Assembly: GCF_001625215.2 (NCBI RefSeq)
Contig: NC_030384.2
Span: forward strand, 30,802,527 to 30,866,526
Reading direction: 5' to 3'
DNA from: Daucus carota subsp. sativus
Taxonomy: Eukaryota; Streptophyta; Magnoliopsida; Apiales; Apiaceae
DNA length: 64,000 nt
Position 1 is the first letter of the stretch; every line of letters starts with the position of its first letter. Positions 10,463-39,585 of the stretch are shown piece after piece. The position numbers and the translations under genes were made by a program. Under the pieces are notes generated by a model. It worked only from the letters and a program-made list of their open reading frames with translations, did no database searches and had not been told where the DNA came from.

Positions 10463-12387
10463 ATGTTGTATGATCCTATATTTAGTAAGAGCTTCAGTCG
10501 ATTTGAGCAGCAGAAAATCGGACGCTTCGCGTTTCTGGCATGTGCGGTGATTGCATTGAGCATTTGTACTGTGTTCAAACCACAATATCATGTTCGAATA
10601 GTTCGTAAGTGTTGATAATTACTTGATTTTTATTGTCAAGGGAAAAATTTATTTTTGAAAATGGGGTTCGGTATTGTTGCCTGATCTATGTTCTGTTTTG
10701 ATTGTTATAGCCTCGATCAGCTTGCAGTTTCCGAGGAGTGTTGGTGGAGTTGACACCGCGGTTATCAAGGATCGAAACATATCCGAGCCATTGCAGTACC
10801 TATCAGTCGGTACTGATGCAGAAGTTGACAATGAAGCAACCAGGGATACCTTGCAACTGTCTGCTAATGATGGTGTGAATGCCAGAAGGGCAGAAAAGGA
10901 TGTAATCGCGTCCAATCTAGTGAAGTCATCGACTAATGATGGTGTGAAAGAAAGACAAGTAGCCAAGGATACGAGTTCCTCAGTGTCATTGTTAGAGGCT
11001 AATGGTGGCAATGTGAAAGACACATATATAACCAAGGATACTACTGGCACGAAGCCGTTGCAGTCATCAACTGGTGAAGGTGTAAAAGACGTCGTAGCTA
11101 GCAATGAAGCGCTTGCTCCTGAGCCAATAGGTATTGTAATCTATATTCTATATTTAGATTAAGGTCAGATTTTACTTCAATTCTGATAAAGTCTCTGTTT
11201 TTTTTTCAGGACTTGAAGCTAAGCTGATTAAGCTGGTATGTAGTTTATCAGAACCTGTATCGGATTACTGTGAACTCGAAGGAGACATTAGAATTCATCC
11301 AAATTCTTCCACCATATTTGTGGTCTCCCACCGGACTGATAGTTCGTTTCAAATTGGCACTTCATGGGTTATAAAACCATATGCTCGAAAAGGAAATGAA
11401 GGAGCCATGGAGAGTGTCAAGAGTTGGACTATCAAAGTCATATCATCTCATCAAACTCCTCCTAGTTGCACTGCAGATCAAAGCATTCCAGCTATTCTTT
11501 TCTCGCTAGCAGGATACTCCGGAAACCACTTCCATGATTTTTCTGACATAATCATTCCCCTGTTTTCAACATCGCGAAAATTTGATGGTGAGGTACATTT
11601 TCTGGCTACTGATTACAAAGCCTGGTGGAGTTCTAAGTACCGAGGAATTCTTGGAAAGCTATCTAAACATAAGGTAAATGATATTGACAGAGAAGAAGGA
11701 ATCGTGTGCTATAAAAGCATGATCATTGGCCTTAAAACTCGAAAGGAGCTAGGCATTGCACAATCATCAAATATTTACCAAGGGTTGTCCATGAAAGATT
11801 TCAGAGACTTCTTAAGGTCTGCCTACTCATTGAAGACAAAAAATGTGACCAAGATGAGAAAAGGCACGACTGAAAAGCCTCGTATGATGATTATATCGCG
11901 GAAAAAATCCAGGACACTAGTCAATGAAAATAAAATTACCAAAATGGGTGAAAACATGGGCTATGAAGTCATTGTAGCTGATGCAACCCTTTCCACAGAT
12001 TTGTCCAAGTTCGCGGAGCTAGTCAATTCTTGCAGTGTTCTGATCGGAGTCCACGGAGCAGGGCTTACGAACATGGTCTTTCTCCCGGACAATGCTGTCG
12101 TGATTCAAATAGTTCCGCTGGGAATCGAATGGTATGCCAGACGTGATTTCGAAGAACCTGCATTGGATATGAACATAAGGTACTTGAGTTACAAGATAAA
12201 AGTAAAAGAGAGCTCTCTGATTCAAGAATATTCAGTTAAGAGTGCAACGATTAGGAATTCATTGTCTGTAAATAAAAATGATTGGGGTGTAATTAGGTCT
12301 GTATATTTGGATAGACAGAACGTAATTCTTGATGTTCGTAGGTTCAGGAGGACCTTGTCAAAAGCTTTCAAACTTTTGCATCAGTAG
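10463..12387 (+). CDS. GT61-1: GT61 glycosyltransferase with long repeat-rich stem
   Basis: Three exons: 10463-10604, 10711-11130, 11210-12387, giving 1740 nt and 579 residues. All junctions are GT-AG and phase 1. Exon 1 encodes a short basic N-terminus and one membrane helix (about residues 21-40, FAFLACAVIALSICTVF), a type II Golgi anchor. Exon 2 encodes a 140-residue hydrophilic stem of four imperfect repeats. Exon 3 is the GT61/DUF563 catalytic domain, with AGYSGNHFHDFSDIIIPL and VHGAGLTN at about residue 468. The family transfers xylose, arabinose or GlcNAc, in plants mostly onto xylan (XAT, XYXT1, MUCI21); donor and acceptor cannot be read from sequence. It is the most divergent and longest array member, and it looks intact. 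Confidence 0.9.
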
Positions 12388-12603
12388 CAAGTAAAAATGA
12401 TCATTTTCTTTCGTTTTGTGTCTCGTGAAGTTCACTCTTACAACTTTACGTGATTTTTAATTTGATGCACTTTCGATTTCCCAAGTCGTCAGGGAGAAAA
12501 GTGCTCAAAAATTGTTTAAGGAATCAACGCTAGTTACTTGCATAAATTATTAGTGGGAAATGATTAAACATGATTACCGATGATTAAAACCGTTAGAAGT
12601 ATA

Positions 12604-13310
12604 TAGAGCTGAACAAAAAGACCGGGCCTAAAAAGACCGTCTGGTCTGGCCCGGTAAAAAGACCGGATAAAGCCCGTCTACTAAAAGCCCGGCCCGGTCT
12701 TTATCTGGCGTGCAAGTCCTTACAAGTCCTTGATTTTTTGTCAAAAATCTGGCCCGGCCCGGCCCGGCAAAAAATCTGGCCTGGATAAAGACGGGCCTGA
12801 TAAAAGACCGGTCTAAAGCCTGGATAAAAGCCCGAAAAGCCCGGATGAAAAGCCCGATTAACCTATAAATCGGAGTTTTTTACACATCCAAGTCCATGTA
12901 TAAATATTAAACATATCCCCACATCAACTAGATTAATTAATGCTACACGTACTGACACAAATTTATATACAAAATTTAAAATTAATTTCAATCAATTCAA
13001 GATATGTATACATATATATCACGTCAATTCATTTATACAACTCAAATTTCAGTTAAATAGAATGATATGGAAAAACTCAATAAAAAAAGGTCATATAATT
13101 ATTTAAAATCATAACTAAAAAAAGCCCGGATAAAAGCCCGGTTAAATCTGGCCCGGCCTGGTAGGCCGAAGTAGGCCTCATTTTTTCATAATAAATCTGG
13201 CCCGGCCCGGCCCGGTTTTTGAAAAGCCCGGTCCGGGCTTTTGAAAAAAAGTCCGGGCTTTTGAAGGACCGGTCCCGGACCTAGTGGGCCGGTCCTTTTG
13301 TTCAGCTCTA
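12604..13310. mobile_element. Non-autonomous hAT element, 707 bp
   Basis: A perfect 8-bp target duplication, GAAGTATA, lies at 12596-12603 and 13311-13318. Both ends read TAGAGCTGAACAAAA inward, followed by GACCGG-type motifs. The interior is full of AAAGCCCGG/CCGGGCTTT repeats and has no coding frame. The intact duplication suggests a fairly young insertion, about 200 bp downstream of the GT61-1 stop. Confidence 0.92.
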
Positions 13311-13318
13311 GAAGTATA

Positions 13319-16300: not shown

Positions 16301-17727
16301 ATATTATTTCAAAATCACAGTAAGTGATAGCACCATCTCATCAACATTGAAGCACTTTTGTCACCAACAGTAACGATATACAAACTCTAACTCTTACAAA
16401 CTCAAAAAACACAATTGCAAATAAACTTGACGAACTATACCAACGAACCAACATTGACTAAATTTTTTTCACACATTTCATTGGAGAAATTTGAAGAAAA
16501 AGAAACAACAAGTAATCACAAAACCAATCAAATATTAATAAAAACAAATAATAATCTTAAAGTGTAAACTAGCAAAAGTTAGTGCACAAGAAACTTAAAC
16601 TTTTAAACAAGAAATAATCCTTCAAAAGACTATGGCGATTAACCAAAACAACTATAGTACTAGTCTTCAACATCTCATAACAAAGTGATCGAGAAAAAAT
16701 AACAAGTAGCAGATACATGAATTCAAGACTGTCAAAATTCACGTCTACATCTAACACTTATAAACATAAAACCCAACAAAATCAATATAATAATAACGAA
16801 TCTTCAAAAGTTTAAAATAGCGTACCTTGATTGTGGTGTAAATACACACAAAAAAATTCATAAAATGACAAAAAGCTAAAGAAAAACATGTTAAAACATT
16901 GATCAATAATCATGTAGCAATATCTTCTAGTCATCATATTCCCCATGTTCCGATGAATTGAATCTCGGATCCAACGTCTTTGTTTCCCGCTGCAAAAGTA
17001 TATTACTTTTGTTCCAAAAGGAAATTTTGAATCCTGAATCAGTTCGAAATACCACAATAGCCGAAATACTAAATCTGGCCATGAGTGAGAGAGAGAGGGG
17101 GGGAGGGGAGAGAGAGGGGAGAGAGAGGGGGATCTCCAACATCCTTAGTATTGCTACTCTGATACTTAATCATGCGTAATACCTCTATTCTAAATGTCGG
17201 TGATCAATCGCAATTAATCACTTGTTTCGTAGTTCGTCGAACTGATTAAATATCTTATTATTCAGTTAAATATCCGATTATCCAGTTAAACATCCGATTA
17301 ATCATCGATCAATCCAATTGATCTCCGATTAATCTGGAACACTTCACCGATTAAATTTAATTCCCGCTTTTTACAACAGTGCGTAATACACACAATAACA
17401 AATAAGCACATTTACGCCCGAATGTCATGCTCGCGCACAACTTGTTCGTCAAACAGTAAACAGAGAAGTAGCTTTGAGCAAACTACTATTACATTTTATT
17501 TTATTATATTACGAACGTGGGGAGCAATCATCATAATAAATATTAATATGCACCTTAATAACAAGAGCTTTGTCCATTGAAAGTTCTGACTGTTTCTACT
17601 TAGATTCTTAAGGATTTTTACAGCTTGGACTGGTGTTCCAGATAAACCAGTATAAGAAGCCCGGCTATGTGCATTTGTATCTTTGGTCTATGCATATGTT
17701 AGTTCTTTAAACAAAATATATCATATG
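13319..17727. other. Gene-free region between GT61-1 and GT61-2
   Basis: No supported gene. It contains a perfect 9-bp stem with a two-base loop (CCCAGCATA, 13967-13986), dispersed repeats of AAAAAGCGCTAGAC type at about 14040-14680, a long T-run near 15450-15471 that may be the reversed tail of a retroposon, a GA-rich microsatellite at about 17086-17131, and a block of degenerate CGATTAATC repeats near 17200-17340. Confidence 0.6.
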
Positions 17728-19516
17728 ATGTACAAGTCTATTTTCGCCAGAAGTTTCAGTGAGCATGAGCAGAAGAAGATGGGCTGCGGAGCTTTTATTG
17801 GTTGTTTGATCATCGCATTCTGCATCTGCGCCTTCTTCAGCCCTTCTCTCGCCCCTCTACCAACTCGTAAGTACACGAAAGAATGCTTGATGCATTATAG
17901 TATTTATAGTGATTTTCATGCACTTTATAGTATGTTACAGACATGCATGATAAGTAGTAGCTAATTAAGGTAATGATCTCTTCGAAAAATAATTTTTTCC
18001 AGGTGAGTTGAAGTTCGCAACAGGAATTAACCTCAAGATGCTGAGGAATACTGTGGAAGCAAGCAAACCTCAAAACTTAAGTACTGTGGAAGCAAGCAAC
18101 CCTCCAAACTTGAGTACGTGCACGGATTATCTTTTACCATAATGTGATTAATTAGCATCTGTACTATATGTTTGTGTGTGTACAGAGGTGCAACTAATGA
18201 AGTGAACTGGTCCATGTCAGAGGCGGAATCAGGATTTCGAGAAAGTTGGAGCTAAAAATATATTTTCCACTGATGTTTAACTTAAAATGAGAGTCTAAGA
18301 AAAGAATTTTACGAGTTTATAATGTAATTAACTTTGATGTAATCCTAATTTTGAAGGGGCAGATGTGATTACAATGGAATCCCAGATAATTTGCAATTTT
18401 ACAGAAGCAGCGTCAGATTTTTGTGAGATGCATGGAGACATAAGGATTCATGGCAACTCATCAACGATATTCGTGCCTGGTTTTAACCTAGAAGATACAT
18501 TTACTGGACAAAATTCACTAGGCATAAAGCCTTATGCAAGAAAAGGAGATGAAGGTGCTATGGAAACTGTAAGATCATTCACATTTTCTCCGGAAATGCC
18601 CGGCTGTACAAGTAATCACAGTGTTCCGGGTATAGTTTTCTCCATTGGAGGATATGCAGAGAACAACTTCCACGGCTTCACTGATGTAGTCATTCCATTA
18701 TATCTAACTTCCCGAAAATTTAAGGGTCAGGTAAAATTCCTTCTAGCAGACAAGAATGCGCGGTGGACTACCAAGTTTAAGATTATATTAGAGAAGTTGT
18801 CAAATTATAAGGCTATTGACATAGATAAAGAAGAGGGAGTGCATTGCTTTCCAAGAATCATACTTGGTCTCGAAAAACATAAGGAGCTGAATATTGATCC
18901 CCTGAAATCACCACATTACTCAATGAAGAACTTTCGGGAGTTCTTAAGAAGTTCATACCACTTGAAGAGGGAATACGCGATTACACTGAGGCACGGAGAA
19001 AAGAAAAGGCCAAGGCTCCTCATTATTTCAAGAAAAAGAACCAGGGCTTTTATGAATGAACAGGAACTAGTTAAAATGGCTCAGAATTTGAAGTTTGATG
19101 TAGTACTTCTAGAGGCCCACTCGAATTTAACAGAGTTTTCAGAGGTGGTGAATTCTTGTGATGTGATGATGGGTGTGCATGGTGCTGGACTAACAAATCT
19201 TGTTTTCCTCCCAAATAACGCTGTTTTTATCCAAGTTGTACCATTAGGACGTCTGGAATGGCTTGCTAGAACTGATTTCGGAGATCCTTCGAAGAATATG
19301 AACTTAAGGTACTTGGAGTATAGGATTGAACAGAGGGAGAGCTCCTTGATACAAAAGTACCCACCTGAGGATATAGTGTTTAAGGACCCTTACTTAATCC
19401 AGAGAAGGGGTTGGTCTGATTTTAGGTCTGTGTATTTAGACAATCAGAATGTAAAACTTGATGTACGTAGGTTTAGAGCAACTTTGGTGGAAGCTCTTCG
19501 GATGCTGAGTATGTAA
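17728..19516 (+). CDS. GT61-2: GT61 glycosyltransferase with short duplicated stem exon
   Basis: Three exons: 17728-17866, 18003-18113, 18357-19516 (1410 nt, 469 residues), all phase 1 with GT-AG. An ATG at 17725 is equally possible; 17728 aligns with the starts of the later copies. Residues about 20-40 form the signal anchor (FIGCLIIAFCICAFF). Exon 2 encodes a 37-residue stem with an adjacent duplication, TVEASKPQNLS then TVEASNPPNLS. Exon 3 is the GT61 domain with VHGAGLTN and a C-terminus ending [10 protein letters not shown]. This is the only intact member of the type that also gave rise to fragments A1-A3. It is probably a Golgi xylan-decorating enzyme; the substrate is unknown. Confidence 0.92.
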
Positions 19517-20083: not shown

Positions 20084-21695
20084 ATGTTGTATGACTCCAT
20101 ATTCGCCAGAAGTTTTAGCCATCATGAGCTGAAGAAGATGAGATGTGGAGCTTTTTTTGGTGGTTTAGTTCTTGGATTCTTCATTTGCATATATTTTACT
20201 CCTTATCACGGGCCTTTACCATTTGGTAAGAATATTAAGTGTGCATAGAAATGTACTACTGCTGTTTATAGTATATGATCTGTTTATTGAATTCTACTAT
20301 GAAATTTAAGCTTTAAGAGCATCGGTGACTTAACATGATATGAGAGTTAAGATGTAGCGATCATTTTTGAATTTGACCAATCCTACCCCCATTGATTATT
20401 TTTAATAAAATTTATATCTGTGTATTTGATTGATGGGTGCATCTTGTTCTTGTCCGTGCATTCGTACATAATGAGAATGGTTATTTGCACAGAGACTTAT
20501 TAACTTTGATGTTACTTCTAATTTTAAAGGGGCAGGTGTGACTACTCGTGCGAAGTCGTCCCGGATAGTTTGCCATTTTACAGAACCGGAATCAGATTTT
20601 TGTGAGATGCATGGAGATACAAGGATTCTTGGCAACTCGTCAACAATTTTCCTTCCTCATTTTAGCGTAGCAGATATGTTTACAAAGAACAATTGGCCAA
20701 GAATAAAGCCTTATGCAAGGAAGACTGATGAAGGTGCAATGCAACATGTGCGAAAATTCAAATTTTCTCAAGAAATGCCCAGATGTACACAAAATCACAG
20801 TGTTCCGGCTGTACTATTCTCCATCGGAGGATACACAGAAAACTACTTTCACAGCTTCAGTGATGTGGTTATTCCATTATATACTACTACCCGGAAATTT
20901 AAAGGTCAAGTGCAATTTCTTCTAGCAGACAAGAACGTTTCTTGGACTACAAAGTTTGAAGTAGTGTTAAAGAAGTTGTCAAATTATGAGGCTATTGACA
21001 TAGATAAAGACGAGGGAGTGCATTGCTTCCCAAGCATGATAATTGGTCTCAAAAAGCATAAGGATCTGAGTATTGATCCACTGAATTCACCAGATTATTC
21101 AATGACAAATTTCAGGGAGTTCTTAAGAAGTTCGTACTATTTAAAGAGGGAATATGCCATTAAGTTAGGCTCAAAGGGGAAGAAAAGACCGAGGCTGCTA
21201 ATTATTTCAAGGAAAAGAACTAGAACATTTATGAATGAAAATGAGATTGTTACAATGGGGCAAAATTTAGGGTTCGATGTTGTTCTTGCAGAGGCCAGGT
21301 CAAATATATCAGAATTTTCACAGTTGGTGAATTCTTGTGATGTGCTGATGGGAGTACATGGTGCGGGCCTAACAAATATTGTTTTTCTTCCCAAAAATGC
21401 TGTTCTCATCCAAGTGTTACCATTTGGTGATTTCGAATGGATTGCTAGAACTTTTTTTGAAGATCCTTCAAAAACTATGAACTTGAGGTACCTAGAATAT
21501 AAGATTAGTGAAAAAGAGAGCTCTATGATACAAAAGTACTCGCTAGATGATGAAGTCTTCAAGAACCCTCCCTCAGTTGCAGAAAAGGGTTGGTCTTATT
21601 TTAAGTCTATGTACTTGGACAATCAAAATGTAAAACTTGATGTATGTAGGTTTAGAGCAACTTTGGTGGAAGCTCTTCGGATGCTGAGTATGTAA
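20084..21695 (+). CDS. GT61-3: two-exon GT61 glycosyltransferase
   Basis: Exons 20084-20225 and 20530-21695 (1308 nt, 435 residues), one phase-1 GT-AG intron. The N-terminus MLYDSIFARSFSHHELKK is followed by a membrane helix at about residues 21-38, then PLPF and the catalytic domain. There is no stem exon, unlike GT61-1 and GT61-2. GT61 motifs are GGYTENYFHSFSDVVIPLY, a basic KKRPRLLIISRKRTRTFMNE block and VHGAGLTN at about residue 323. Its last 30 residues ([17 protein letters not shown]) match GT61-2 better than the later copies, which end LLEALQMLSM, suggesting gene conversion or an intermediate position in the array's history. Confidence 0.93.
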
Positions 21696-22288: not shown

Positions 22289-24309
22289 ATGTACGACTCC
22301 ATTATTGCCAGAAGTTTTAGCCAGCATTGGCAGAAGAAGATGAGATGTGGAGCTTTTTTTGGTGGTTTTATTCTTGGATTCTTCATTTGCATATACTTCA
22401 CACCTTATCAAGGCCCTTTACCGTTTGGTAAGTATATTATGTGTACTGGTATTGCTATATATACAGTATATGATCCGTTTATTGAATTCCACGATCAAAT
22501 TTGAGCTTTAAGAGCATCGGTGACTTAACATGATATGAGAGCTAAGATATAACGAGCATTTTTGAATTGAGCCCTCCTACCCATTGATTATTTTTCAATA
22601 AAATTTCTATCTGTGTATTTGATTGATGTGTGCATCTTGTTCTTGTCCGTGCATTCGCACAGAATGAAAAGGGTTAATAGTATATTCTATGTTCAGGTAC
22701 TCTTTCGAATTCTATGCATTTGAGGAAGAACATGAATGTTGGAATTTTTACATTAATGTCTGTTTGGGAATTTGGATTTCATGAAATTAAGGATTTGATC
22801 AAATGACATGTTTGGATACATACAAAAAAGCTGGATTCAGATTTCATTTGAAATCCAGAACATTCAAATGCTAGTATAAAACTGAGAATTTGAAATGACA
22901 TCTCAAACCATGTCATTTGAAATCCAAAATTTGAAATGAAATACATGTTTCCAAACACAATCTAATAGAATTTGATCATTTCCAGAAAAATATCTAATAT
23001 GGGCACCATATATATTTTTAACTTGTTCTTTTCGATTATGATTTATGTATGCAGTAGGCTGATGATGGATGATTCTTCTCATCTTATCTGAAAACAGTGT
23101 ATTGCACAGAGACTAACTAACTTTGCTGTTACTTCTAATTTTCAAGGGGCAGATGTGACTACTGGTGTGGAGTCCCGGATAGTTTGCCATTTTACAGAAC
23201 CGGAATCAGATTTTTGTGAGATGCATGGAGATATAAGGATTCTTGGCAACTCGTCAACAATTTTTATTCCTCATTTTAGCGTAGCAGATATGTTTACAAA
23301 GAACAATTCGTCAGGAATAAAGCCTTATGCAAGGAAGAGTGATGAAGGTGCACTGGAACATGTGCGACAATTCAGATTTTCTCAAGAAATGCCCAAATGT
23401 ACACAAAATCACAGTGTTCCGGCTGTACTATTCTCCATCGGAGAATACACAGGAAACTACTTCCACAGCTTCAGTGATGTGGTTATTCCATTATATACTA
23501 CTTCCCGGAAATTTAATGGCCAAGTACAATTTCTTCTAGCAGACAAGAAAGTTTCTTGGACTACAAAGTTTCAAGTAGTGTTAAAGAAGTTGTCAAATTA
23601 TGAGGCCATTGACATAGATAAAGAAGATGGAGTGCATTGCTTCCCAGGCATGATAATTGGTCTCAAAAAATATAAGGAGCTGAGTATTGATCCAGTGGAA
23701 TCACCAGATTATTCAATGACAAATTTTAGGGAGTTCTTAAGAAGTTCGTACTTTTTGAAGAGGGAATATGCCATTAGATTAGGCTTGAAAGGGAAGAAAA
23801 GAGCGCGGCTGCTAATTATTTCAAGGAACAGTACTAGAACATTTATGAATGAAAATGAGATTGTTACAATGGCTCAAAAGTTAGGGTTCGATGTTGTTCT
23901 TGCAGAGGCCAGCTCAAATATACCAGAATTTTCACAGTTGGTGAATTCTTGTGATGTGCTGATGGGAGTACATGGTGCTGGCCTAACAAATATTGTTTTT
24001 CTTCCCAAAAATGGCGTTCTCATCCAAGTGGTATTATTTGGTGGTGGCGAATGGCTTGCTACAACTTATTTTGGAGATCCTTCCAAGAATATGAACTTGA
24101 GGTATCTGGAATATAAGATAAGTGAAAAAGAGAGCTCTCTGATACAAAAGTACCCGCTCGATCATGAAGTCTTCAAGAACCCTCAATCAATTGCAGAAAA
24201 GGGTTGGCCTTATTATAAGTCTGTGTATTTGGACAATCAAAATGTAAAACTTGATGTTTTTAGGTTTAAAACAACCTTGTTGGAAGCTCTTCAGATGTTA
24301 AGTATGTAA
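22289..24309 (+). CDS. GT61-4: two-exon GT61 glycosyltransferase
   Basis: Exons 22289-22427 and 23147-24309 (1302 nt, 433 residues), phase-1 GT-AG intron of 719 bp. It has a type II anchor at about residues 20-37 (AFFGGFILGFFICIYF), then the GT61 domain with VHGAGLTN. A short signature, VVLFGGGEWLATTYFGDPSK, groups it with GT61-7 and psi5. The intron holds a 205-bp MITE also present in GT61-6 and GT61-8. All catalytic-region motifs are kept and the frame is open throughout, so I treat it as functional. A fragment of a second GT61 gene (A1) starts only 40 bp after the stop. Confidence 0.92.
22758..22962. mobile_element. MITE in the GT61-4 intron (PIF/Harbinger-like)
   Basis: The left end is GTCTGTTTGGGAA and the right end read in reverse GATTGTGTTTGGAAAC; TAAT flanks both sides. 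Orthologous copies lie in the introns of GT61-6 (30781-30973) and GT61-8 (38039-38232). The GT61-7 intron has an uninterrupted TAAT at 33531-33534 in the same context, an empty site. Confidence 0.75.
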
Positions 24310-24349
24310 AAGTTATCTTGACAGAAATCTTGCAGAGAGTGAAATGGTT

Positions 24350-24627: not shown

Positions 24628-24711
24628 ATACTAATGTTTTGGTATTGATGCAAATTCTTCACAATATTGTCTGCACTTCAAATGTCAGAAAATATGTTAT
24701 AGTTATATGTT

Positions 24712-26724: not shown

Positions 26725-26879
26725 AAAGTTATCTTGACAGAAATCTTGCAGAGAGTTGTCTGCACTTAAAATCTAACAAAAAGTTTACTTTTTAAGCTGA
26801 TTGATCACTGATAATCTTACGGAGAACTCTTTTTGAGTTTTGTGGTAGACCTGTCTTGATTCGCACTGATAAGTTCACT

Positions 26880-27376
26880 GATGGCTTATAAGGGCACCCA
26901 AAACTCTTTTTGAGCTTTGTGGTAGACCTGTCTTGCTTCGCACTGTTTTTTCACCAAATTAATCAAATACATAGGTCAAATAACAAGTACTCAGACGCTT
27001 CAGCGTCTACCTTAGCCTGAGCCATCAGCAAAAGAATCAACTTTCAGTCTCTTACTGAAAAATCTGTTAAACTTTCTAATTTTTCCAATTATAAAAAAAA
27101 TATTAACCTCGACGGAACTGGTGATGACTCTGAGGAAGTTCCAACTAGTTCTGACTTGGCCTTCCAGAGTCTCACAAGAAAGTTCGAATGAAAATATGAT
27201 ATGATGCATTGCAGGCTTCAAAGCTCGCACTATCATGGTTCTGAGCTTTTAAAAGAGGCTTATACTTGAGGTTTAATGAAAATTTAAAGTATTAACGATA
27301 TTACCAAAAACATACTATCTGAATCTTTTTTAGATAATAATTATTATCCTTCTGAGGAATTATATATGGATTATAT
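26880..27376. repeat. Dispersed repeat, copy 1
   Basis: About 500 bp that also occurs at 42371-42842, with roughly 85-90% identity by eye (GGCTTATAAGGGCACC..., ...GATAATTATTATCC). A partial duplicate of its left part precedes it at 26823-26872. It separates psi5 from fragment A2. One plus-strand frame looks protein-like in both copies, but I do not recognise the family. Confidence 0.75.
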
Positions 27377-27528
27377 TAAGGCACGGAGAAAAGAAAAGGC
27401 CAAGGCTCCTCATTATTTCAAGAAAAAGAACCAGGGCTCTAATTATGAACGAACAAAACTAGTTAAAATGGCTCAGAAGTTGAAGTTTGATGTAGTGCTT
27501 CTAGAGGCCGACTCGAATTTAACAGATA

Positions 27529-28615
27529 CTAGTTTATAACCCGTGCCAAGCACGGGATTATATGAATTTTTAAGTTTATTATTTATTGAAAATATAATAT
27601 TTATAATATAGTTATTTAAATTATTATTGTTGAGATACAAAACTTATTATGCATTAACATATTAATATTTAATTATGATTAAGTTTTATTTTTCAAAATA
27701 ACTATTCTCAGGATACATGTTATTATATGAATTTATTTTAAAATGGTACGTTTTATTTTAATAAAATCATTATGTTGTCTTTGATTGTAGATAGATGGAA
27801 AAAAAATTCAACACCACCATATATAAATTGGCTGAGAGTGCATTCAATCTTTAATAAAACTTAATTTTTTAGTTCATAATTGTTTTAGACGTCTAATAGA
27901 TACTATTAAGTGTAACGCTAATTCAAATTCTTGTAAATTTAATATTGATGGATATTTGTCAAATTCATATAAAACTATAGCAGAGATTATAAATTAAATG
28001 AATTTAAAATTAATTTATTTATTTGAATGCTGATATATGATAGGAGTTTTACAGAATTGTTTCATAAATTAAATTATTTGAGTTCAAAGAAATAAAAAAT
28101 AAATAATTTTATTGGTGGTCTAACTGTTGCATTACAAAATCCTAACAACGTTGGAAGTCTTTTTTTAATAGTATAAGATTGAAGTCTTTAATTATAAAAT
28201 TCTAATCAATATCAAAGTCTGATAATTATAAAATCCTAACCAATATTAAAATCTTTATTTATAAAATCATAATAAATATGAAAGTCTTTTCATAATAATA
28301 TAATAAAATTATAAAATCCTAACCAATACGACATTTTTTTCATAATAATTTAATGATTATCATTATTAAGTAAAAAGTTTATATTGATTATAAAATCCTA
28401 ATAACTATAGAAGTCGTCTTTAATTATAATATCTTAAAATATTATAAATTCCTGACCAATATAAGTCTTTTAATGATAATATAATATTTTTAATAGGAGT
28501 ATAATAATTATAATAATAATAATAATTAAATATGATATAAGATGACCAAATTTTGGTACTTTTAGTACCGATGTTCCACTGAAACGCGGTTTCCCTTATT
28601 AATAAGGGGTATTGA
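27529..28615 (-). mobile_element. Non-autonomous Helitron in fragment A2
   Basis: On the minus strand the 3' end is hairpin CCCGTGC/GCACGGG, then TTATAAA and CTAG (27529-27532), followed by T; the 5' end is TCAATACCCC (28615). Removing 27529-28615 rejoins AACAGATA to TTTCACAG, which aligns base for base in length with AACAGAGTTTTCACAG in A3 (from about 35652). There is no target duplication, and insertion is between A and T, as Helitrons do. No Rep/helicase is encoded in 1087 bp. Confidence 0.9.
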
Positions 28616-28843
28616 TTTCACAGTGGGTGAATTCTTGTGATGTGATGATGGGTGTGCGTGGTGCTGGACTAACAAATCTTGTTTTTCTCCCGAATAACGC
28701 TGTTTTTATCCAAGTTTTACCATTAATTAGGAGGTCTGGAATGGCTTGCTACAACTGATTTTGGAGATCCCTCGAGAACTTAAGGTACTTGGAGTATAGG
28801 ATTAAAGAAAGGGAGAGCTCTCTAATACAAAAGTACCCACTTG

Positions 28844-29026
28844 CAGGCCGGATGTAGAAACGAAATCTTAGGGGTACTGAGCAAATTTTCGAAAAACACT
28901 TATATATTTTTAAATTATGAGAGGTACTTCTGTAATTTTATAAAATTTAGAATGATGAAAATATATATAAAAAAATTTTAAAGGGAACACGTGTCCTCCA
29001 TGCCTCTTCCTAAATCCACCCATGCT
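28844..29026 (-). mobile_element. 183-bp insertion in A2, same family as the 3'-flank repeat
   Basis: It interrupts the A2 homology exactly between YPL and DIVFKD codons. CACTTG occurs at 28838-28843 and 29027-29032, a likely target duplication. Read in reverse it matches the repeat found after several array genes (GGAGGACACGTGT, ATCATTCTAAATTTTATA). Confidence 0.7.
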
Positions 29027-29190
29027 CACTTGACGTACGATATAGTGTTTAAGGACCGTTTTTTAATCCAGAAAAGGGGTTGGTCTGATTTGAGGTCTGT
29101 GTAGTTGGACAACCAAAATGCAAAACTTGATGTACGTAGGTGAGCAACTTTGGTGGAAGCTCCTCGGATGCTGAGTATGTAAAAATACTA

Positions 29191-30300: not shown

Positions 30301-32325
30301 ATGTACAACTCCATTGTTGATGGAAGTTTTAGCCAGCATTGGCAGAAGAAGATGAGACGTGGAGTTTTTTTTGGTGGTTTGGTTCTTGGATTCTTCATTT
30401 GCATATACTTCACACCATATCAAGGCCCTTTACCGTTTGGTAAGTATATTATGTGTACTATACAAATGTGGTATTGCTGTTTATAGTATATGATCCGTTT
30501 ATTGAATTCCAATATCAAATTTGAGCTTCAAGAGCATCGGTGAACTTGACATGATATGAGAGCTAGGATATAGCGAGCATTTTTGAATTGAGCGCTCCGA
30601 CCCCCATTGATTATTTTTCAATAAAATTTCTATCTGCGTGTTTGATTGATGTGTGCATCTTGTTCTTCTCCGTGCATTTGTACAGAATGAGAAAGGTTAA
30701 TAGTATATTCTGTGTTTAGGTACTCTTTCGAATTCTATGCATTTGAGGAAGAACATGGATGTTGGAATTTTTTCATTAATGTCTGTTTGGGAACTTAGAT
30801 TTCATGAAATCCTACATTTGATCAAATGACATGTTTGGATACACAAAAAAAACTAGATTTGAAATCCAGAACATTCAAATGCTAGTATAAAACTGAGAAT
30901 TTGAACTGATATCTGAAACCATGTCATTTAAAATTAAAAATTTGAAATGAAATACAAGTTCCCAAACACAACCTAATAGAATTTGATAATTTCCAGAAAA
31001 ATATCTAAATGGGCACCATATATATTTTTAACTTCTTCTTTTCAGTTATGATTTATGTATGCAGTAGGCTAATTATGGATGATTTTTCTTATCTGATCTG
31101 AAAACAGAGCATGGCACAGAGACTAATTAACTTTGATGTTACTTCTAATTTTCAAGGGGCGGATGTGACTACTCGTGTGAAGTCCCGGATAGTTTGCCAT
31201 TTTACAGAACCAGAATCAGATTTTTGTGAGATGCATGGAGATATAAGAATTCTTGGCAACTCGTCAACAATTTTCATTCCTGATTTTAGGGTAGCAGATA
31301 TGTTTACAAAGAACAATTTGTCAGGAATAAAGCCTTATGCAAGGAAGACTGATGAAATTGCACTGGAACATGTACGACAATTCAGCTTTTCTCAAGAAAT
31401 GCCCAGATGTACACAAAATCACAGAGTTCCGGCTATATTATTCTCTATCGGAGGATACACAGGAAACTACTTTCACAGCTTCACTGATGTGGTTATTCCA
31501 TTATATACTACATCCCGAAAATTTAATGGTCAAGTACAATTTCTTCTAGCAGACAAGAATGGTTCCTGGACTACAAAGTTTCAAGTAGTGTTAAAGAAGT
31601 TGTCAAATTATGAGGCTATTGACATAGATAAAGAAGACGGAGTGCATTGCTTCCCAAGCATGATAATTGGTCTCAAAAAGTATAAGGAGCTGAGTATTGA
31701 TCCACTGACATCACCAGATTATTCAATGACGAATTTCAGGGAGTTCTTAAGAAGTTCGTACTATTTGAAGAGGGAATATGCCATTAGATTAGGCTCGAAA
31801 GAAAAGAGAAGACCGAGGCTGCTAATTATTTCAAGGAAAAGAACTAGAACATTAATGAATGAGCATGAGCTTGTTACAATGGGGCAAAATTTAGGGTTCG
31901 ATGTTGTTGTTGCAGAGGCCAGGTCAAATATATCTGAAGTTTCACAGTTGGTGAATTCTTGTGATGTGCTGATGGGAGTACATGGTGCTGGCCTAACAAA
32001 TATTGTTTTTCTTCCCAAAAATGCTGTTTTCATCCAAGTGTTACCAATACCATCTGGTGATTTCGAAAGGATTGCTAGAACTTCTTTTGGAGATCCTTCA
32101 GAAACTATGAACTTGAGGTACCTGGAATATAAGATTAGTGAAAAAGAGAGCTCTCTGATACAGAAGTACCCGCTCGATCATGAAGTCTTCAAGAACACTC
32201 ACACAATTGCAGAAAAGGGTTGGTTTTACTTTAAGTCTATGTATTTGGAAAATCAAAATGTAAAACTTGATGTTCTTAGGTTTAAAACAACTTTGTTGGA
32301 AGCTCTTCAGATGTTAAGTATGTAA
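30301..32325 (+). CDS. GT61-6: two-exon GT61 glycosyltransferase
   Basis: Exons 30301-30439 and 31157-32325 (1308 nt, 435 residues), phase-1 GT-AG intron. A frame that seems to start at 31111 is only intron read-through. The anchor is GVFFGGLVLGFFICIYF; exon 2 carries GGYTGNYFHSFTDVVIPLY, EKRRPRLLIISRKRTRTLMN and VHGAGLTN. A two-residue longer loop (VLPIPSGDFERIARTSFGD) is shared only with GT61-8, its closest relative. R replaces the W found at that place in all other members (DFERIA against DFEWIA), which may be neutral or may matter. It is followed by a WAT1 fragment, as GT61-8 is followed by the true WAT1 gene. Confidence 0.92.
30781..30973. mobile_element. MITE in the GT61-6 intron
   Basis: Same insertion point and ends as the GT61-4 intron MITE (GTCTGTTTGGG on the left; TAAT on both sides). 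Confidence 0.72.
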
Positions 32326-32588: not shown

Positions 32589-32774
32589 TAAGATGGACTT
32601 TCCCTGCTAATAAGATGGCACCAAGAATTGCAGCTACTATCATTGACAGGTGAAAGTTGTCACAAAGACCGGACCCTTTAATTTGTTCACATAACCCTGC
32701 ACATGATACGCAGGGTACTCCTTTAATGTAATTGACTGCAGTTCATCGAAACAAATGATGACAAGTGATTGCAT
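32589..32774 (-). pseudogene. WAT1 gene fragment trapped in the GT61 array
   Basis: Aligns to WAT1-1: parts of exon 6 (AGATGGCACC, ACAAAGACCGGACCCTTT) and the start of exon 5, ending in intron 4 at TTGCAT. A gap of about 225 bp relative to WAT1-1 lies inside it and removes intron 5 with the adjoining exon ends. The sequence before it (32455-32588) matches the 3' flank of GT61-8 at 39705-39836, so gene flank and WAT1 piece were duplicated together. Too little remains to encode a transporter. Confidence 0.9.
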
Positions 32775-33061
32775 AGCAAGTAATCAGAATATTAACACAC
32801 ACTCAAGAATTGAATTAATCCCCATGCATAATGCATTTACACTAAAACCAGATCTTCTTCCTTCACTGCCATCCAATATTGATATGTCCTTGACTATTTT
32901 CTCCTTGTATTCTAAGCTACTGGCTAATCTTTCAGCTAATTACGTTCTCACCACATGCAAATTTATACTATCTTGTAAGACCATCTATCAACATATATGT
33001 ATCTTTCAGGCAAGCTTGCATTGGTTGTGTTTGCTTAAGGGGTCATTTTCTCGAAAAAGCG

Positions 33062-35367
33062 ATGTACAACTCCATTGTTGCCAGAAGTTTTAGCCAGCAT
33101 GGGCAGAAGAAGATGAGACGTGGAGCTTTTTTTGGTGGTTTGGTTCTTGGATTCTTCATTTGCATATACTCCACACCTTATCAAGGCCCTTTAGCATTTG
33201 GTAAGTATATTATGTGTGCTATACAAATATGGTATTGCTGTTTATAGTATATGATCCATTTATTGAATTCCACTATCAAATTTGAGCTTTAAGAACATCG
33301 GTGACTTAACATGATATGAGAGAGAGCTAAGATATAGCAAGCATGTTTGAATTGAGCCTCCTACTCCCATTGATTATTTTTCAATAAAATTTCTATTGGT
33401 GTATTCGATTGATGTGTGCATCTTGTCCTCCATGCATTCGTGCAGAATGAGAAGGTTATCATTCTGTGTTTAGGTACTCTTTTGAATTGTGTGCATTTGA
33501 GGAAGAACATGGATGTTCGAATTTCTACATTAATAGAATTTGATCATTTTTTCTGGCAAAAAAAAAAAAAAGAATTTGATCATTTTCAGAAAAATATCTA
33601 ATATGGGCACCATATATATATTTTTAACTTATTCTTTTGGATTATGACTAATGTATAAAGTTGAATATATAATTCTCGCCATGCAGTACGCTAATGATGG
33701 ATGATTCTTCTCATCTGATATGAAAACAGAATATTGGAGAGGGCTATAAATGAACCGAGCTGGTCGAAAAGTCGACTCGACTAGACTCTAGAAAAGATCG
33801 ACTCGGCTCATTAACGAGTTGAGTTCGAACGGCCAATAATGTTCAATAAGCTTGACGAGTCGAACCAAACTTTTTAGTTGTTCGAGTCGACTCGTTAAAT
33901 ACTCGGACTCGCGTTCGACTCGACTTGGTTTTTAACGAACTCGAGTTCGAATCGGAAAAAAAAGAAGATCAATAAGTTTATCGAGTTTGGCTCGACTCGG
34001 TAAGAAAAAACTCGACTCGAACTCGGTTCGTTTAAGGCCCAATTGCACAGAGACTAATTTTCTATTTGACAAATATGGCTTATAGCCTTACAAATGAGTA
34101 TCTGTTCTACGACACTCAGAGGATAAGCTCTTAACCACTGAGCTATCCAACCGTGCTCATTGCACATAGACTAATTAACTTTGATGTTACTTGTAATTTT
34201 GAAGGGGCAGATGTGACAACACCTGTGAAGTCCCGGATAGTTTGCAATTTTACAGAACCGGAATCAGATTTTTGTGAAATGCATGGAGATATAAGGATTC
34301 TTGGCAGCTCGTCAACAATTTTCATTCCTCATTTTAGCGTAGCAGATATGTTTACAAAGAACAATTCGTCAGGAATAAAGCCTTATGCAAGGAAGAGTGA
34401 TGAAGGTGCCCTGGAACGTGTGCGACAATTCAGATTTTCTCAAGAAATGCATAGATGTACACAAAATCACAGTGTTCCGACTGTACTATTCTCCATCGGA
34501 GAATACACCGGAAACTACTTTCACAGCTTCAGTGATGTGGTTATTCCATTATATACTACTTCCCGGAAATTTAATGGTCAAGTACAATTTCTTCTAGCAG
34601 ACAAGAAAGTTTCTTGGACTAAAAAGTTTCGAGTAGTCTTAATGAAGTTGTCAAATTATGAGGCCATTGACATAGATAAAGAAGACGGAGTGCATTGCTT
34701 CCCAGGCATGATAATTGGTCTCAAAAAGCATAAGGAGCTGAGTATTGATCCACTGGAATCACCAGATTATTCAATGACAAATTTCAGGGAGTTCTTAAGA
34801 AGTTCGTACTATTTGAAGAGGGAATATGCCATTAGACTAGGCTCAAAGGGGAAGAAAAGACCGAGGCTGCTAATTATTTCAAGGAAAAGAACTAGAACAT
34901 TTATGAATGAAAATGAGATTGGTAAAATGGCTCAAAAGTTAGGGTTCGATGTTGTTCTTGCAGAGGCCAGCTCAAATATATCAGAATTTTCAAAGTTGGT
35001 GAATTCTTGTGATGTGCTGATGGGAGTACATGGTGCTGGCCTAACAAATATTGTTTTTCTTCCCAAAAATGCTGTTCTCATCCAAGTGGTATTATTTGGT
35101 GGTGTCGAATGGCTTGCTACAACTTATTTTGGAGATCCTTCCAAGAATATGAACTTGAGGTACCTGGAATATAAGATTAGTGAAAAAGAGAGCTCTCTGA
35201 TACAAAAGTATCCGCTCGATGATGAAGTCTTCAAGAACCCTCAATCAATTGCAGAAAAGGGTTGGCCTTATTATAAGTCTGTGTATTTGGACAATCAAAA
35301 TGTAAAACTTGATGTTTTTAGGTTTAAAACAACTTTGTTGGAAGCTCTTCAGATGTTAAGTATGTAA
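33062..35367 (+). CDS. GT61-7: two-exon GT61 glycosyltransferase with a heavily invaded intron
   Basis: Exons 33062-33200 and 34205-35367 (1302 nt, 433 residues), phase-1 GT-AG. It has the anchor AFFGGLVLGFFICIYS, then the GT61 domain with GEYTGNYFHSFSDVVIPLY, KKRPRLLIISRKRTRTFMNE and VHGAGLTN. The loop VVLFGGVEWLATTYFGD makes GT61-4 and psi5 its nearest relatives. The 1004-bp intron holds a hAT MITE, a SINE whose duplicated target ends 28 bp before the acceptor, and a 22-bp poly(A) insertion, but lacks the MITE seen in GT61-4, -6 and -8. The coding sequence itself is undamaged; whether splicing tolerates the SINE so near the branch-point region is the open question. Confidence 0.9.
33549..33570 (+). 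mobile_element. Minimal retroposition footprint: 22 bp with poly(A)
   Basis: TTTTCTGGC followed by 13 A residues is bracketed by a perfect 14-bp direct repeat, AGAATTTGATCATT (33535-33548 and 33571-33584). Other array introns have this 14-mer once. Poly(A) tail plus long target duplication is the LINE-machinery signature. Confidence 0.75.
33741..34041. mobile_element. hAT-like MITE in the GT61-7 intron
   Basis: The left end is GGGCTATAAATGAACCGAGC and the right end in reverse GGGCCTTAAACGAACCGAGT. The interior is repeats of CGAGTCGA/TCGACTCG type. Flanks ATTGGAGA (33733-33740) and ATTGCACA (34042-34049) match at 6 of 8 bases, and the paralogs have one uninterrupted ATTGCACA. Confidence 0.72.
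34060..34158 (-). mobile_element. tRNA-derived SINE in the GT61-7 intron
   Basis: On the minus strand it begins GAGCACGGTTGG and contains TAGCTCAGTGGTTAAGAG, an excellent tRNA A box for RNA polymerase III; it ends in an A-rich tail. Direct repeats of 18 bp, ATTGCACAGAGACTAATT (34042-34059) and ATTGCACATAGACTAATT (34159-34176), differ at one base. Paralogs carry the 18-mer once. A B box is not clear, and the element is short (99 bp). Confidence 0.82.
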
Positions 35368-35447
35368 AAGTTATCTTGACAGAAATCTTACAGAGAGTTG
35401 TCTGCACTTAAAATGTAACAAAAAAGTTTACTTTTCAAGTATATTAC

Positions 35448-35870
35448 ACTGAGGCACGGAGAAAAGAATTTCCTGGGGTATGCCCTTGTAGATTGTCCTT
35501 TTTTTATAAAATTTTTAATTAGAAAAAAAAAACCCTAGCCTCCTCATTATTTCAAGAGAAAGAACCAGGGCTTTTTTGAATGAACAAAAACTAGTTAAAT
35601 TGGCTCAGAAGTTGAAGTTTGATGTAGTGTTTCTAGAGGCGACTCGAATTTAACAGAGTTTTCACAGGTGGTCAATTCTTGTGATGTGATGATGGGTGTG
35701 CATGGTGCTGGACTAACAAATCTGTTTTTCTCCCGAATAATGCTGTTTTTATCCAAGTTGTACCATTAGGAGGTCTGGAATGGCTTGGTACTACTGATTT
35801 CGGAGATCCTTCGAAGAATATGAACTTAAGGTACTTTGGTGGAAGCTCTTCGGATGCTGAGTATGTAAAT
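35448..35870 (+). pseudogene. Fragment A3: GT61-2-type remnant
   Basis: Homology to GT61-2 runs from the HGEKKRPR block through VHGAGLTN to [10 protein letters not shown]. An extra ~70 bp interrupts it at about 35467-35539, a one-base loss occurs in the AATCTTGTTTTTC stretch (about 35728), and a deletion joins RYL directly to TLVEAL near 35834. No promoter or anchor remains. Its position behind GT61-7 mirrors A1 behind GT61-4 and A2 behind psi5. Confidence 0.9.
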
Positions 35871-36080
35871 ACTAATGTTTCAGTATTGATGCAAATTCTT
35901 CACATTGTTGTCTGCATTTCAAACATCGGAAAATATGATATAGTCATGTGTAATCGGATCTGGCAAGGAGTAAGGAATATAGAAGTTGCCTCAGAAAATT
36001 TGAAAATATATAAAAAAGAATTGAAAATTTGTTGGGTGCCCCCGAAAATCATCATGCTAGTCCGTCTCTCTGTCTATTAC

Positions 36081-36996
36081 TGTTGGTTTTTTAAGATACA
36101 AGAGGGAGAGAGATGTAATATATTAGGTGGAAGCTTATAGGAGAGACATGGAAACTTATATTTTTATTAATCAAAAGCCTCTTTATATAGAGCTCACATC
36201 AAACAAATAAGCATGATTAGTGCCACTCATATAGCCTAATCAATTACAAATATTCCTCCAATCAATCAACATTAAAACAAAATCAACTAATTAATATTTC
36301 AATTACAATTTTGAATCATAGTTTCAACACTCCCTCTTGATTCGAAATTGTAATTTTTATTCAGAATTTGAAAATGACGATGTACTTCTCATCATCACCA
36401 AGCATGGAGCACTTCTCTCCACAACCGTGAAGCACTTCTCTCCACAAACGTGGTACACTTCTCACCACAAACGTGGAGCACTTCTCTCCACAAACATTTT
36501 TCTTATCATTATGACACTCATCTTGGTGCCTCTTGTTATTTGATCCTCTTGACCCCCTTCATGTTCTTTCTCGGGAGGTTTGGTTGACTCGTCTTCAAAA
36601 TCCCTTATTTGATTTAGTGTTGGATTGTATCCAAGAGGTTGCATCTCCCTCTCAGATTCAATTCTCCACCAACTTGAACTTCTCATAGCGGAAGTCATGA
36701 ACTCACATTGATAGATCCCTTAAGATCATTGAAGCTCTGATACCATTTGTTGGTTTTTTAATATACAAGAGGGAGAGAGATGTAATATATTAGGTGGAAG
36801 CTTATAGGATAGACATGGAAACTTATATTTTTATTAATCAAAAGACTTTTTATATAGAGCTCACATCAAACAAATAAGCATGATTAGTGCCACTCATATA
36901 GCCTAATCAATTACAAATATTTCTCCAATCAATCAACATTAAAACAAAATCAACTAATTAATATTTCAATTACAATTTTGAATCATAATTTCAACA
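36081..36996 (-). mobile_element. TRIM-type LTR retroelement (fossil, non-coding)
   Basis: Two 249-bp direct long terminal repeats, 36081-36329 and 36748-36996, both TGTTGG...TCAACA. Next to the right repeat, GCTCTGATACCA (36734-36745) read on the minus strand is TGGTATCAGAGC, the initiator-tRNA-Met primer site; a purine-rich tract adjoins the left repeat. Flanks ATTAC and GTTAC suggest a 5-bp target duplication. The 418-bp interior encodes nothing recognisable. The repeats differ at about 6 of 249 bases, implying roughly 1-2 million years at commonly used plant rates. Family: terminal-repeat retrotransposon in miniature. Confidence 0.93.
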
Positions 36997-37615
36997 GTTA
37001 CTATAGTATTACAGTATTGATCAACCGAGCATGTACAATCTTCTGAGAACCCATCTATTCACGCACCCATCTTATCATACAATGATTCAAAATCTCAAAA
37101 TCCGACAAGCGGATCGAAATCACGAACTCTGGTAAGCGGGCGGAGGACTGACCATGATCCAAATACCGAACTATATTCAAAAGATGTACTTGCTCACAGA
37201 AAATAGTCAAGAGAAGAAAACTGTGTCTTCATTAAAAAGTTGTTTGTTTCTCTGAGTTTTCATAAATTTTGTGTGGACAAAAGTCCACTGTACCACCAAA
37301 CTACAAACTTGTTAAATATAAGCTTGCATAGCAACAGCAAGTAATCAGAATATACTTAAGGATTAAATTAATGCCATGCATAATGCATTTAACATTGAAA
37401 ATAAGATCTTCTTCCTTCACTGCCACCTAATATTGATATTTCATTGACTATTTCCTGCTTCGATTATAACTAGTGATTAATCTTTCAGTTAATTAGGTTC
37501 TCAGTACCATATGCATATTTGTATCTTGTAAGAAGACCATCTATGAACATATATATCTTTCAGGCAAGCTTGTATTAGTTGTGTTTGCTTAAGTAGTCAT
37601 TTTCTCGAAAAAGCG

Positions 37616-39585
37616 ATGGACAACTCCATTGTTGCCAGAAGTTTTAGCCAGCATTGGCGGAAGAAGATGAGACGGGGAGCTTTTTTTGGTGGTTTGGTTC
37701 TTGGATTCTTCATTTGCATATACTTCACACCTTATCAAGGCCCTTTACCCTTTGGTAAGTATATTATGTGTACGATTCAAATGTAGTATTGCTTTTTGTA
37801 GTTTTTGTAGCTAAGATATAGCGAGCATTTTTGAACATTTTAGAATTGAGCCCTCCTACCCCCATTGATTATTTTTCAATAAAATTTCTATCTGTGTATT
37901 TGATTGATGTGTGCATCTTGTTCTTCTCCGGGCATTCGTACAGAATGAGAAGGGTTAATAGTATATTCTGTGTTTAGGTACTTTTTCGAATTCAATGCAT
38001 TTGCGGAAGAACATGGACGTTGGAATTTTTACATTAATGTCGGTTTAAGAACTTGGATTTCATCAAATCCTGCATTTGATCAAATGACATCTTTGGATAC
38101 ACAAAAAAAAATTGGATTTGAAATCCGGAACATTCAAATGCTAGTATAAAATTGAGAATATGAAATTACATCTCAAACCATGTCATTTGAAATCCAAACT
38201 TTAAAATGAAATACATGTTCCCAAACACAATCTAATTAAATTTGATCATTTCCAGAAAAATATTTAATATGGGCACCAGATATATTTTTAACTTATTCTG
38301 TTCCATTATGATTTATGTATGCAGTAGGCTAATGATGGATGACTCTTCTCATCTGATCTGAAAACAGAGTATTACACAGAGGCTAATTAACTTTGATGTT
38401 GCTTGTAATTTTAAAGGGGCAGACGTGACTACTCCTGTGAAGTCCCGGATAGTTTGCAATTTTACAGAACCGGAATCAGATTTTTGTGAGATGCATGGAG
38501 ATATAAGGATTCTTGGCAACTCGTCAACAATTTTCTTTCCTCATTTTAGCGTAGCAGATATGTTTACAAAGAACAATTGGCCAAGAATAAAGCCTTATGC
38601 AAGGAAGACTGATGAAGGTGCACTGGAGCGTGTGCGACAATTCAGATTTTCTCAAGAAATGCCCAGATGTACACAAAATCACAGAGTTCCGGCTATATTA
38701 TTCTCCATAGGAGGATACACAGGAAACTACTACCACAGCTTCAGTGATGTGGTTATTCCATTATATACTACTTCCCGGAAATTTAATGGTCAAGTACAAT
38801 TTCTTCTAGCAGACATGAAAGTTTTTTGGACTGCAAAGTTTCAAGTAGTGTTAAAGAAGTTGTCAAATTATGAGGCGATTGACATAGATAAAGAAGAAGG
38901 AGTGCATTGCTTCCCAAGCATGATAATTGGTCTCAAAAAGTATAAGGAGCTGAGTATTGATCCACTGACATCACCAGATTATTCAGTGACGAATTTCAGG
39001 GAGTTCTTAAGAAGTTCGTACTATTTGAAGAGGGAATATGCCATTAGATTAGGCTCGAAAGAGAAGAGAAGACCGAGGATGCTAATTATTTCAAGGACAA
39101 GAACGAGAAAATTAATGAATGAGCATGAGCTTGTTACAATGGCGCAAAAGTTAGGGTTCGATGTTGTTCTTGCAGAGGCCAGCTCAAATATATCAGAATT
39201 TTCACAGTTGGTGAATTCTTGTGATGTGCTGATGGGAGTACATGGTGCTGGCCTAACAAATATTGTTTTTCTTCCCAATAATGCTGTTTTCATCCAAGTG
39301 TTACCAATACCATTTGGTGATATCGAATGGATTGCTAGAACTACTTTTGGAGATCCTTCAAAAACTATGAACTTGAGGTACCTGGAATATAAGATTAGTG
39401 AAAAAGAGAGCTCTCTGATACAAAAGTACCCGCTTGATCATGAAGTCTTCAAGAACCCACCCTTAGTTGCACAAAAGGGTTGGTCTTACTTTAAGTCTAT
39501 CTATTTGGAAAATCAAAATCTAAAACTTGATGTTCTTAGGTTTAAAACAACTTTGTTGGAAGCTCTTCAGATGTTAAGCATGTAA
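37616..39585 (+). CDS. GT61-8: two-exon GT61 glycosyltransferase, last in the array
   Basis: Exons 37616-37754 and 38417-39585 (1308 nt, 435 residues), phase-1 GT-AG. The anchor is AFFGGLVLGFFICIYF, followed by the GT61 domain with GGYTGNYYHSFSDVVIPLY (Y where other members have FH; the H is kept), EKRRPRMLIISRTRTRKLMN and VHGAGLTN. The VLPIPFGDIEWIARTTFGD loop makes GT61-6 its sister. The intron carries the shared MITE (38039-38232). It lies tail-to-tail with WAT1-1, stop to stop about 525 bp, with a PIF-like MITE between. Confidence 0.93.
38039..38232. mobile_element. MITE in the GT61-8 intron
   Basis: Third copy of the shared intron insertion; TAAT on both sides and a slightly eroded left end (GTCGGTTTAAGAA). 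Confidence 0.7.

Follow-up and report, generated by a model that had tools for sequence, protein, structure and literature searches.

A one-orientation GT61 tandem array in carrot with intact genes, truncated fragments and mosaic copies

A 64,000-nt stretch of the Daucus carota subsp. sativus genome (GCF_001625215.2, NC_030384.2, positions 30,802,527-30,866,526, forward strand), hereafter the window, carries a tandem array of GT61 glycosyltransferase genes; all coordinates given here are window positions. The array comprises 11 GT61-derived units, all on the plus strand between 10463 and 39585, which were found by tblastn of seven open reading frames (ORFs) of the window and, concordantly, by blastn of the window against itself, the latter retrieving all 11 units together with their spacers. 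The tblastn search of the window with the seven ORFs gave no GT61 match at E<=1e-3 beyond 11158-39582. There are seven intact genes, one broken copy (psi5, the fifth) and three 5'-truncated fragments of the GT61-2 type (A1, A2 and A3), and the copies GT61-1 to GT61-8 are abbreviated g1 to g8. The same count and single orientation had been given by a first-pass annotation of this DNA, and it was borne out by tblastn, self-blastn, spliced models and Pfam. Very probably, unequal crossing-over of blocks of several genes enlarged the cluster, and the copies subsequently exchanged sequence with one another.

Content of the array and predicted proteins

The units of the array and the neighbouring features that bear on its history are the following.

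10463-12387, plus strand: g1 (GT61-1), intact, distant paralogue; exons 10463-10604, 10711-11130, 11210-12387 (tblastn, spliced model, Pfam)
17725-19516, plus strand: g2 (GT61-2), intact; exons 17725-17866, 18003-18113, 18357-19516 (spliced model, Pfam)
20084-21695, plus strand: g3 (GT61-3), intact, chimera; exons 20084-20225, 20530-21695 (spliced model, site states, Pfam)
22289-24309, plus strand: g4 (GT61-4), intact; exons 22289-22427, 23147-24309 (spliced model, Pfam)
24347-24805, plus strand: A1, GT61-2-type 3' fragment with 3' flank (self-blastn, start-point mapping, tree)
25688-26725, plus strand: psi5, broken copy (self-blastn, spliced-model inspection, frame scan)
27367-29190, plus strand: A2, GT61-2-type fragment in three pieces, 27367-27526, 28616-28843, 29039-29190 (self-blastn, tree)
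30301-32325, plus strand: g6 (GT61-6), intact; exons 30301-30439, 31157-32325 (spliced model, Pfam)
32590-32774 (185 bp), minus strand: truncated EamA-like copy in the g6-g7 spacer, marking a block-duplication junction (spacer homology, comparison with the EamA-like gene)
33062-35367, plus strand: g7 (GT61-7), intact; exons 33062-33200, 34205-35367 (spliced model, Pfam)
35443-35976, plus strand: A3, GT61-2-type fragment, 35443-35468, 35521-35834, ~35843-35976 (self-blastn, tree)
37616-39585, plus strand: g8 (GT61-8), intact; exons 37616-37754, 38417-39585 (spliced model, Pfam)
40115-41958, minus strand: EamA-like transporter gene 3' of g8, present as exon pieces; the remnant at 32590-32774 derives from it, and it bounds the array (Pfam, hand-joined pieces)

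The ORFs omit exon 1, which was found 0.1-1 kb upstream in the seven intact copies and psi5 and ends at GTAAG. In all eight it encodes a short basic tail followed by about 20 hydrophobic residues, as judged by eye. Plant Golgi GT61 enzymes have a type II topology, with a short N-terminal cytosolic tail and a single membrane anchor. All seven intact copies gave spliced models, free of internal stops, in which the introns are GT-AG and of phase 1; the splice-site coordinates are predicted from conservation and phase. Every intact gene matched PF04577 of Pfam with 50.4-59.4 bits (cut-off 27; E 3.7e-13 to 6.1e-16), and protein identity among the intact copies is 47-93% over 380-410 residues, far above chance. 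The g1 gene, which starts with the ATG at 10463, is remote, with 47-49% amino acid identity to the other copies and a synonymous divergence (dS) that was not computable by the Nei-Gojobori method (NG86); it is a distant relative and not a recent copy of the array. A stem exon is 140 codons long in g1 (10711-11130) and 37 codons long in g2 (18003-18113), where it contains a 33-bp repeat in roughly two copies. Genes g3, g4, g6, g7 and g8 are modelled without the stem exon, with the phase intact and the anchor joining the catalytic domain almost directly. The intron of g7 holds an insert (~33737-34158) in which two pieces were recognised by eye, one with apparent terminal inverted repeats and one tRNA-like, lying between the copies of an 18-bp near-repeat; ARAGORN calls no tRNA gene in the window, and Rfam and tRNA scans of the 64 kb gave no match.

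Residues N103, H106, R226 and R230, the N-R-R triad that binds uridine diphosphate (UDP) and the neighbouring His, do not vary among the seven intact proteins. In a profile alignment they correspond to N245, H248, R372 and R377 of EOGT by the published residue numbers, and these Asn-His and Arg-Arg positions line the UDP site in the solved structures of the GT61 members EOGT and POMGNT2. Unlike the carrot proteins, those two are animal N-acetylglucosaminyltransferases of the endoplasmic reticulum, and only ~195 residues are alignable. The proteins encoded by the seven intact genes are predicted to be type II membrane enzymes of the Golgi that use UDP-sugars and, going by family knowledge only, would most likely add pentose side chains to xylan; in that role they would belong with the XAT and XYXT enzymes of GT61 clades A and B, which transfer Ara or Xyl to xylan. 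One scan each of bacterial/archaeal and viral contigs with the seven-sequence alignment found no relatives, as expected for plant genes.

Two loop classes lie just past the uridine-pocket motif, VVLFGG.EWLATTYFGD in g4 and g7 and VLPIP.GD in g6 and g8. The former had also been attributed to psi5, and this part of the first-pass annotation did not hold. Exon 1 of psi5 is open, and the rest of the copy carries a 4-bp insertion (GATT) near 26012, a late 1-nt deletion and a deletion of ~390 nt at 26499-26502, with a 4-bp overlap at its ends, that removes the R-R motif of the UDP-binding triad, HGAGLTN and the loop region. Because the loop position falls inside this deletion, psi5 cannot share the loop, and a scan of the three plus-strand frames found VVLFGG.EW and TTYFGD in g4 and g7 only. 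The psi5 piece 26017-26499 alone has no Pfam match. In each of the three segments compared, the remaining exon 2 of psi5 is closest to either g4 or g7, and in the first segment g8 comes next.

The fragments A1, A2 and A3 cluster with g2 in two trees, with support of 100/99 and 100/100; in the former the tail piece of A3 is probably misaligned (branch 0.18), and the latter is the realigned tree. Two insertions split A2 into its three pieces, and the true start of A3 at 35443, which is earlier than its main BLAST match, adjoins the 3' flank of g7. On the 3' side of A3 there are direct repeats of 249 bp (36081-36329 and 36748-36996, 97.6% identical, 418 bp apart), and by eye this pair looks like a small recent element of the long terminal repeat type.

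Exchange between copies and duplication of blocks

Among g4, g6, g7 and g8 there are 46 informative sites in the unit alignment without the g7 intron insert. The pattern that groups g4 with g7 and g6 with g8 is seen at 33 of 34 sites to the right of a breakpoint at 23360-23415 and at 4 of 12 sites to its left (permutation p=0.0006), the other left-side sites supporting g4 with g6 and g7 with g8 (5/12) or g4 with g8 and g6 with g7 (3/12). The support for the 4+7 and 6+8 pairs, 100/99 and 99/98, is restricted to the last ~920 nt of exon 2, and there is none in the 1.5 kb upstream. Right of the breakpoint the approximately unbiased (AU) test rejects 4+6 (p=3.6e-8) and 7+8 (p=5.5e-5). The pairing of 4 with 7 and 6 with 8 proposed by the first reading of this DNA is thus correct for the 3' part and fails upstream of it; since it is confined to the 3' part, the copies are recombinant and a single tree does not describe them. 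The pairwise homoplasy index (PHI) test on exon 2 of g3, g4, g6, g7 and g8 gave p=0.0015 with a window of 50, p=0.018 with 100 and p=0.001 with 200; a whole-unit PHI test (p=0.0005) included the g7 insert and is not relied on.

The g3 gene is a chimera. At the 180 sites that separate g2 from g4, g6, g7 and g8, it has GT61-2-type states at 2 of the first 172 and at all of the last 8 (p=0.0002). Its GT61-2-type part comprises the last ~60 nt of the coding sequence (CDS) and the 3' flank to 21876, with the switch between 21626 and 21644, and the dS of g2 vs g3 falls from 0.80 over the 276-codon body to 0.17 over the last 30 codons. Homologous spacers, chimeric copies and conflicting phylogenetic signal, which characterise tandem arrays subject to unequal crossing-over and conversion, are all found at this locus.

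The spacers 3' of A1, A2 and A3 are mutually homologous, and their shared segment is unmatched in the g2-g3 spacer at E<=1e-6. A2 (~27367) and A3 (35443) start at the same GT61-2 position within about 5 bp. The remnant at 32590-32774 is 88.9% and 90.9% identical to the EamA-like gene 3' of g8, has the same orientation and keeps the nine-residue exon peptide SITLKEYPA. As this remnant lies between g6 and g7, a block ending inside the EamA-like gene was duplicated. The duplicated blocks are A2, g6 and the EamA remnant on the one hand, and g7, A3, g8 and the EamA-like gene on the other; to judge from the order of the units, psi5 probably headed the first block. The divergences are similar in size, being 8.2-9.8% for the fragments from g2 and from each other and about 9-11% for the EamA remnant, with a dS of 0.089 for g4-g7 and 0.092 for g6-g8. 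A repeating composite unit, as first suggested, is largely borne out by the homologous spacers of the three fragments, the common start of A2 and A3, which A1 does not share, and the EamA piece.

The assignment of the EamA-like gene is weak, as its four hand-joined pieces reach E=2e-4 and 22.1 bits, under the curated cut-off of 28.2. It belongs to a tandem pair of related EamA/WAT1-like genes on the minus strand (40115-46036), whose four exon pieces share 32-50% protein identity and for which the name WAT1 is our presumption. A repeat of ~490 bp, 85.7% identical, was also seen at 26881-27373, directly at the A2 start, and at 42371-42841, just past the EamA-like gene.

The history that we propose begins with an old divergence into g1, the GT61-2 type (g2) and the type of g3 to g8, the latter two being separated by a dS of about 0.65. 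The g3-g8 type multiplied later (pairwise dS 0.09-0.16) alongside truncated GT61-2-type copies, and one duplicated block extended into the EamA-like neighbour and gave rise to the two blocks named above. Exchange then produced the mosaics, in which g3 has a GT61-2-type tail and the likeness of the 4/7 and 6/8 pairs is limited to the final ~920 nt of exon 2.

Loop classes, selection and alternative histories

It had also been suggested that selection for side-chain diversity drove the expansion, in which case the two loop classes would be enzymes with different donor or acceptor choice. This is possible, if doubtful. We used our own script for the GY94 codon model and the site models M1a and M2a on 276 codons of the 3' body, for which the overall ratio of nonsynonymous to synonymous rates (dN/dS) is 0.36 as a single value. 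The array branches have a raised ratio, 0.56 vs 0.22 for the older branch leading to g2 (p=0.0004), and so have the stems of the 4/7 and 6/8 pairs, 0.83 vs 0.32 (p=0.018); a set of 432 codons, which mixes recombinant parts, is concordant (0.54 vs 0.27, p=0.002; stems 1.02 vs 0.35, p=0.007). Of the 27 amino acids that distinguish the 4/7 pair from the 6/8 pair right of the breakpoint, within 307 codons, 10 are concentrated in codons 338-361 (scan p=0.0003), a region that starts 10 residues after HGAGLTN, the last residue of which aligns with EOGT H432, a uridine contact. The loop classes may therefore differ in donor or acceptor choice, to judge from this position. In commelinid arrays, the ancestral branch A6 is reported to have a raised dN/dS and a branch-site signal and to be under positive selection, and the within-species site models there (p 0.0486, 0.42, 1 and 0.43) were read by the authors as no signal (PMC6297846).

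Against selection for diversity, the site models detected no positive selection in our alignment (M2a was no better than M1a, p=1, and none of the site classes exceeded 1), and amino acid variability as a whole is not significantly clustered (scan p=0.16). The sites of the 4/7 and 6/8 pattern right of the breakpoint, 35 on the codon alignment and 33 on the unit alignment, comprise 27 nonsynonymous and 8 synonymous changes on the former, a ratio that by our own estimate, which was not computed, is roughly that of unconstrained change. A dN/dS that is raised yet below 1 fits relaxed constraint, and relaxed constraint after duplication accounts equally well for the values. The suggestion of selection for side-chain diversity was thus not borne out, the array branches staying at 0.56 and M2a giving no improvement over M1a.

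A second alternative is that the GT61-2-type fragments donate short conversion tracts and thereby rewrite the loop of neighbouring genes of the g4 type, which we consider unlikely. There are GT61-2-type states at five sites in g4 and g7 (24044-24089), with totals of 11/172 in g4 and 9/172 in g7 and a densest-run p of 0.042 and 0.013, respectively, and the codon states of G346 and T352 are common to the fragments and g4/g7 and are not those of g2 or g3/g6/g8. However, this is a handful of sites with weak p values in a region examined after the motif had been noticed, the data do not give the direction of transfer, and ancestral retention is possible at some sites. That the kept fragments form a local sequence store, with cassette-like conversion of the donor-pocket loop generating enzyme variants, is more speculative still and very improbable.

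Repeated tandem duplication of single genes, with the fragments as independently decayed full GT61-2-type genes and the loop pairing as plain descent, is also quite improbable, and several observations that favour it, or that otherwise weigh against block duplication and exchange, need to be considered. The units of g2 and g3 are colinear for ~2.2 kb into the next unit. A1 has a start point of its own, ~255 bp further in than those of A2 and A3 and directly after 31 bp of g4 3' flank; a truncation common to all three requires a second cut in A1, and otherwise A1 was cut differently. A1 to A3 and g2 form a star tree with unsupported inner branches, and a clade of the fragments excluding g2 lacks support (constrained log likelihood 0.57 lower, AU p 0.25). 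The tree upstream of the breakpoint is also star-like, and there the AU test rejects none of four pairings (p 0.24-0.39); the left part is a loss of pairing and not a firm alternative, and the exact order of events was not recovered. The position of psi5 as sister of g7 is unclear, as psi5 is nearest g7 in the spacer (10.6%) and nearer g4 in exon 1 and two of the three exon-2 segments. The loop is placed in the active site by sequence only, because the AlphaFold2 model of the protein encoded by g4 exon 2, made with six paralogues from the window, was too poor to use (mean predicted local distance difference test score 36.5, predicted template modelling score 0.38). Single-gene duplication is disfavoured by the EamA remnant between g6 and g7, which is shared with the g8 flank and tells against it for g6-g8, by the coinciding starts of A2 and A3, and by the signal conflict along the gene in the PHI and 46-site tests together with the g3 chimera. 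An assembly artefact with collapsed or falsely expanded haplotypes, which the first-pass annotation had raised, found no specific support beyond the general proneness of tandem arrays and is barely credible in view of CDS differences of 4-9% among intact g3-g8 and 4-22% among g2-g8, upstream-spacer differences of 11-18% (psi5 included), a longest exact match of 112 bp between any two of ten units (g1 excluded), and private insertions in g7, A2, A3 and the A3-g8 spacer.

Setting and relation to known GT61 clusters

From its genes and introns the window looks like plant chromosome, and its G+C content is 25-39% per 2 kb. Outside the array, an ORF at 2514-3455 encodes a hAT transposase dimerisation domain (PF05699, E=1e-22) and adjoins a direct duplication (3698-4071 and 4074-4436, 95.7%). 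A short reading frame at 50855-51088 matches RNA polymerase beta subunit domain 6 (PF00562, E=6.9e-18) and looks like a plastid rpoB piece transferred to the nucleus. On the minus strand, 52278-57527 holds pieces that look like exons of a protein phosphatase 2C gene; of three pieces compared with Pfam, one reaches PF00481 (53410-53721, E=2.9e-4), and the other two, without a match, were judged by eye.

Among 13 angiosperms, GT61 genes number 4-7 in the dicots and 15-39 in the commelinids, which have tandem loci (PMC6297846). The carrot array resembles the commelinid OG-GT61-A loci described there in being a tandem GT61 array from local duplication. In those loci, however, different orthogroups stand side by side with inversions and interspecies colinearity, whereas the carrot array consists mostly of recent copies in one orientation. 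Plantago ovata, also a eudicot with many GT61 genes, has 19, of which nine form a clade A cluster on chromosome 4 and group in the tree (PMC9883528); the duplication of GT61 genes in Plantago has been tied to mucilage heteroxylan (PMC5181589). Repeat anatomy, fragments and recombination, all three described here, are not described for the Plantago ovata cluster in the compared text of PMC9883528. Known activities of plant GT61 enzymes are given in PMC12579940 and PMC13123520. With the commelinid arrays and the Plantago cluster on record, an array of such size is of a known kind, and the carrot locus is a well-documented case of this kind of gene cluster, not a new system. Among the matches listed, no paper on exchange within GT61 arrays was recognised by title, and we do not claim its absence from print.

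Enzymes of wall polysaccharides are often encoded in tandem clusters, and their function is usually assigned via whole-gene trees. At this locus whole-gene pairing is misleading, as the 5' and 3' parts of one copy have different closest relatives, and such a tree would misfile a chimera like g3. The two loop classes are a small natural set of variants for probing how plant GT61 enzymes choose their donor or acceptor.

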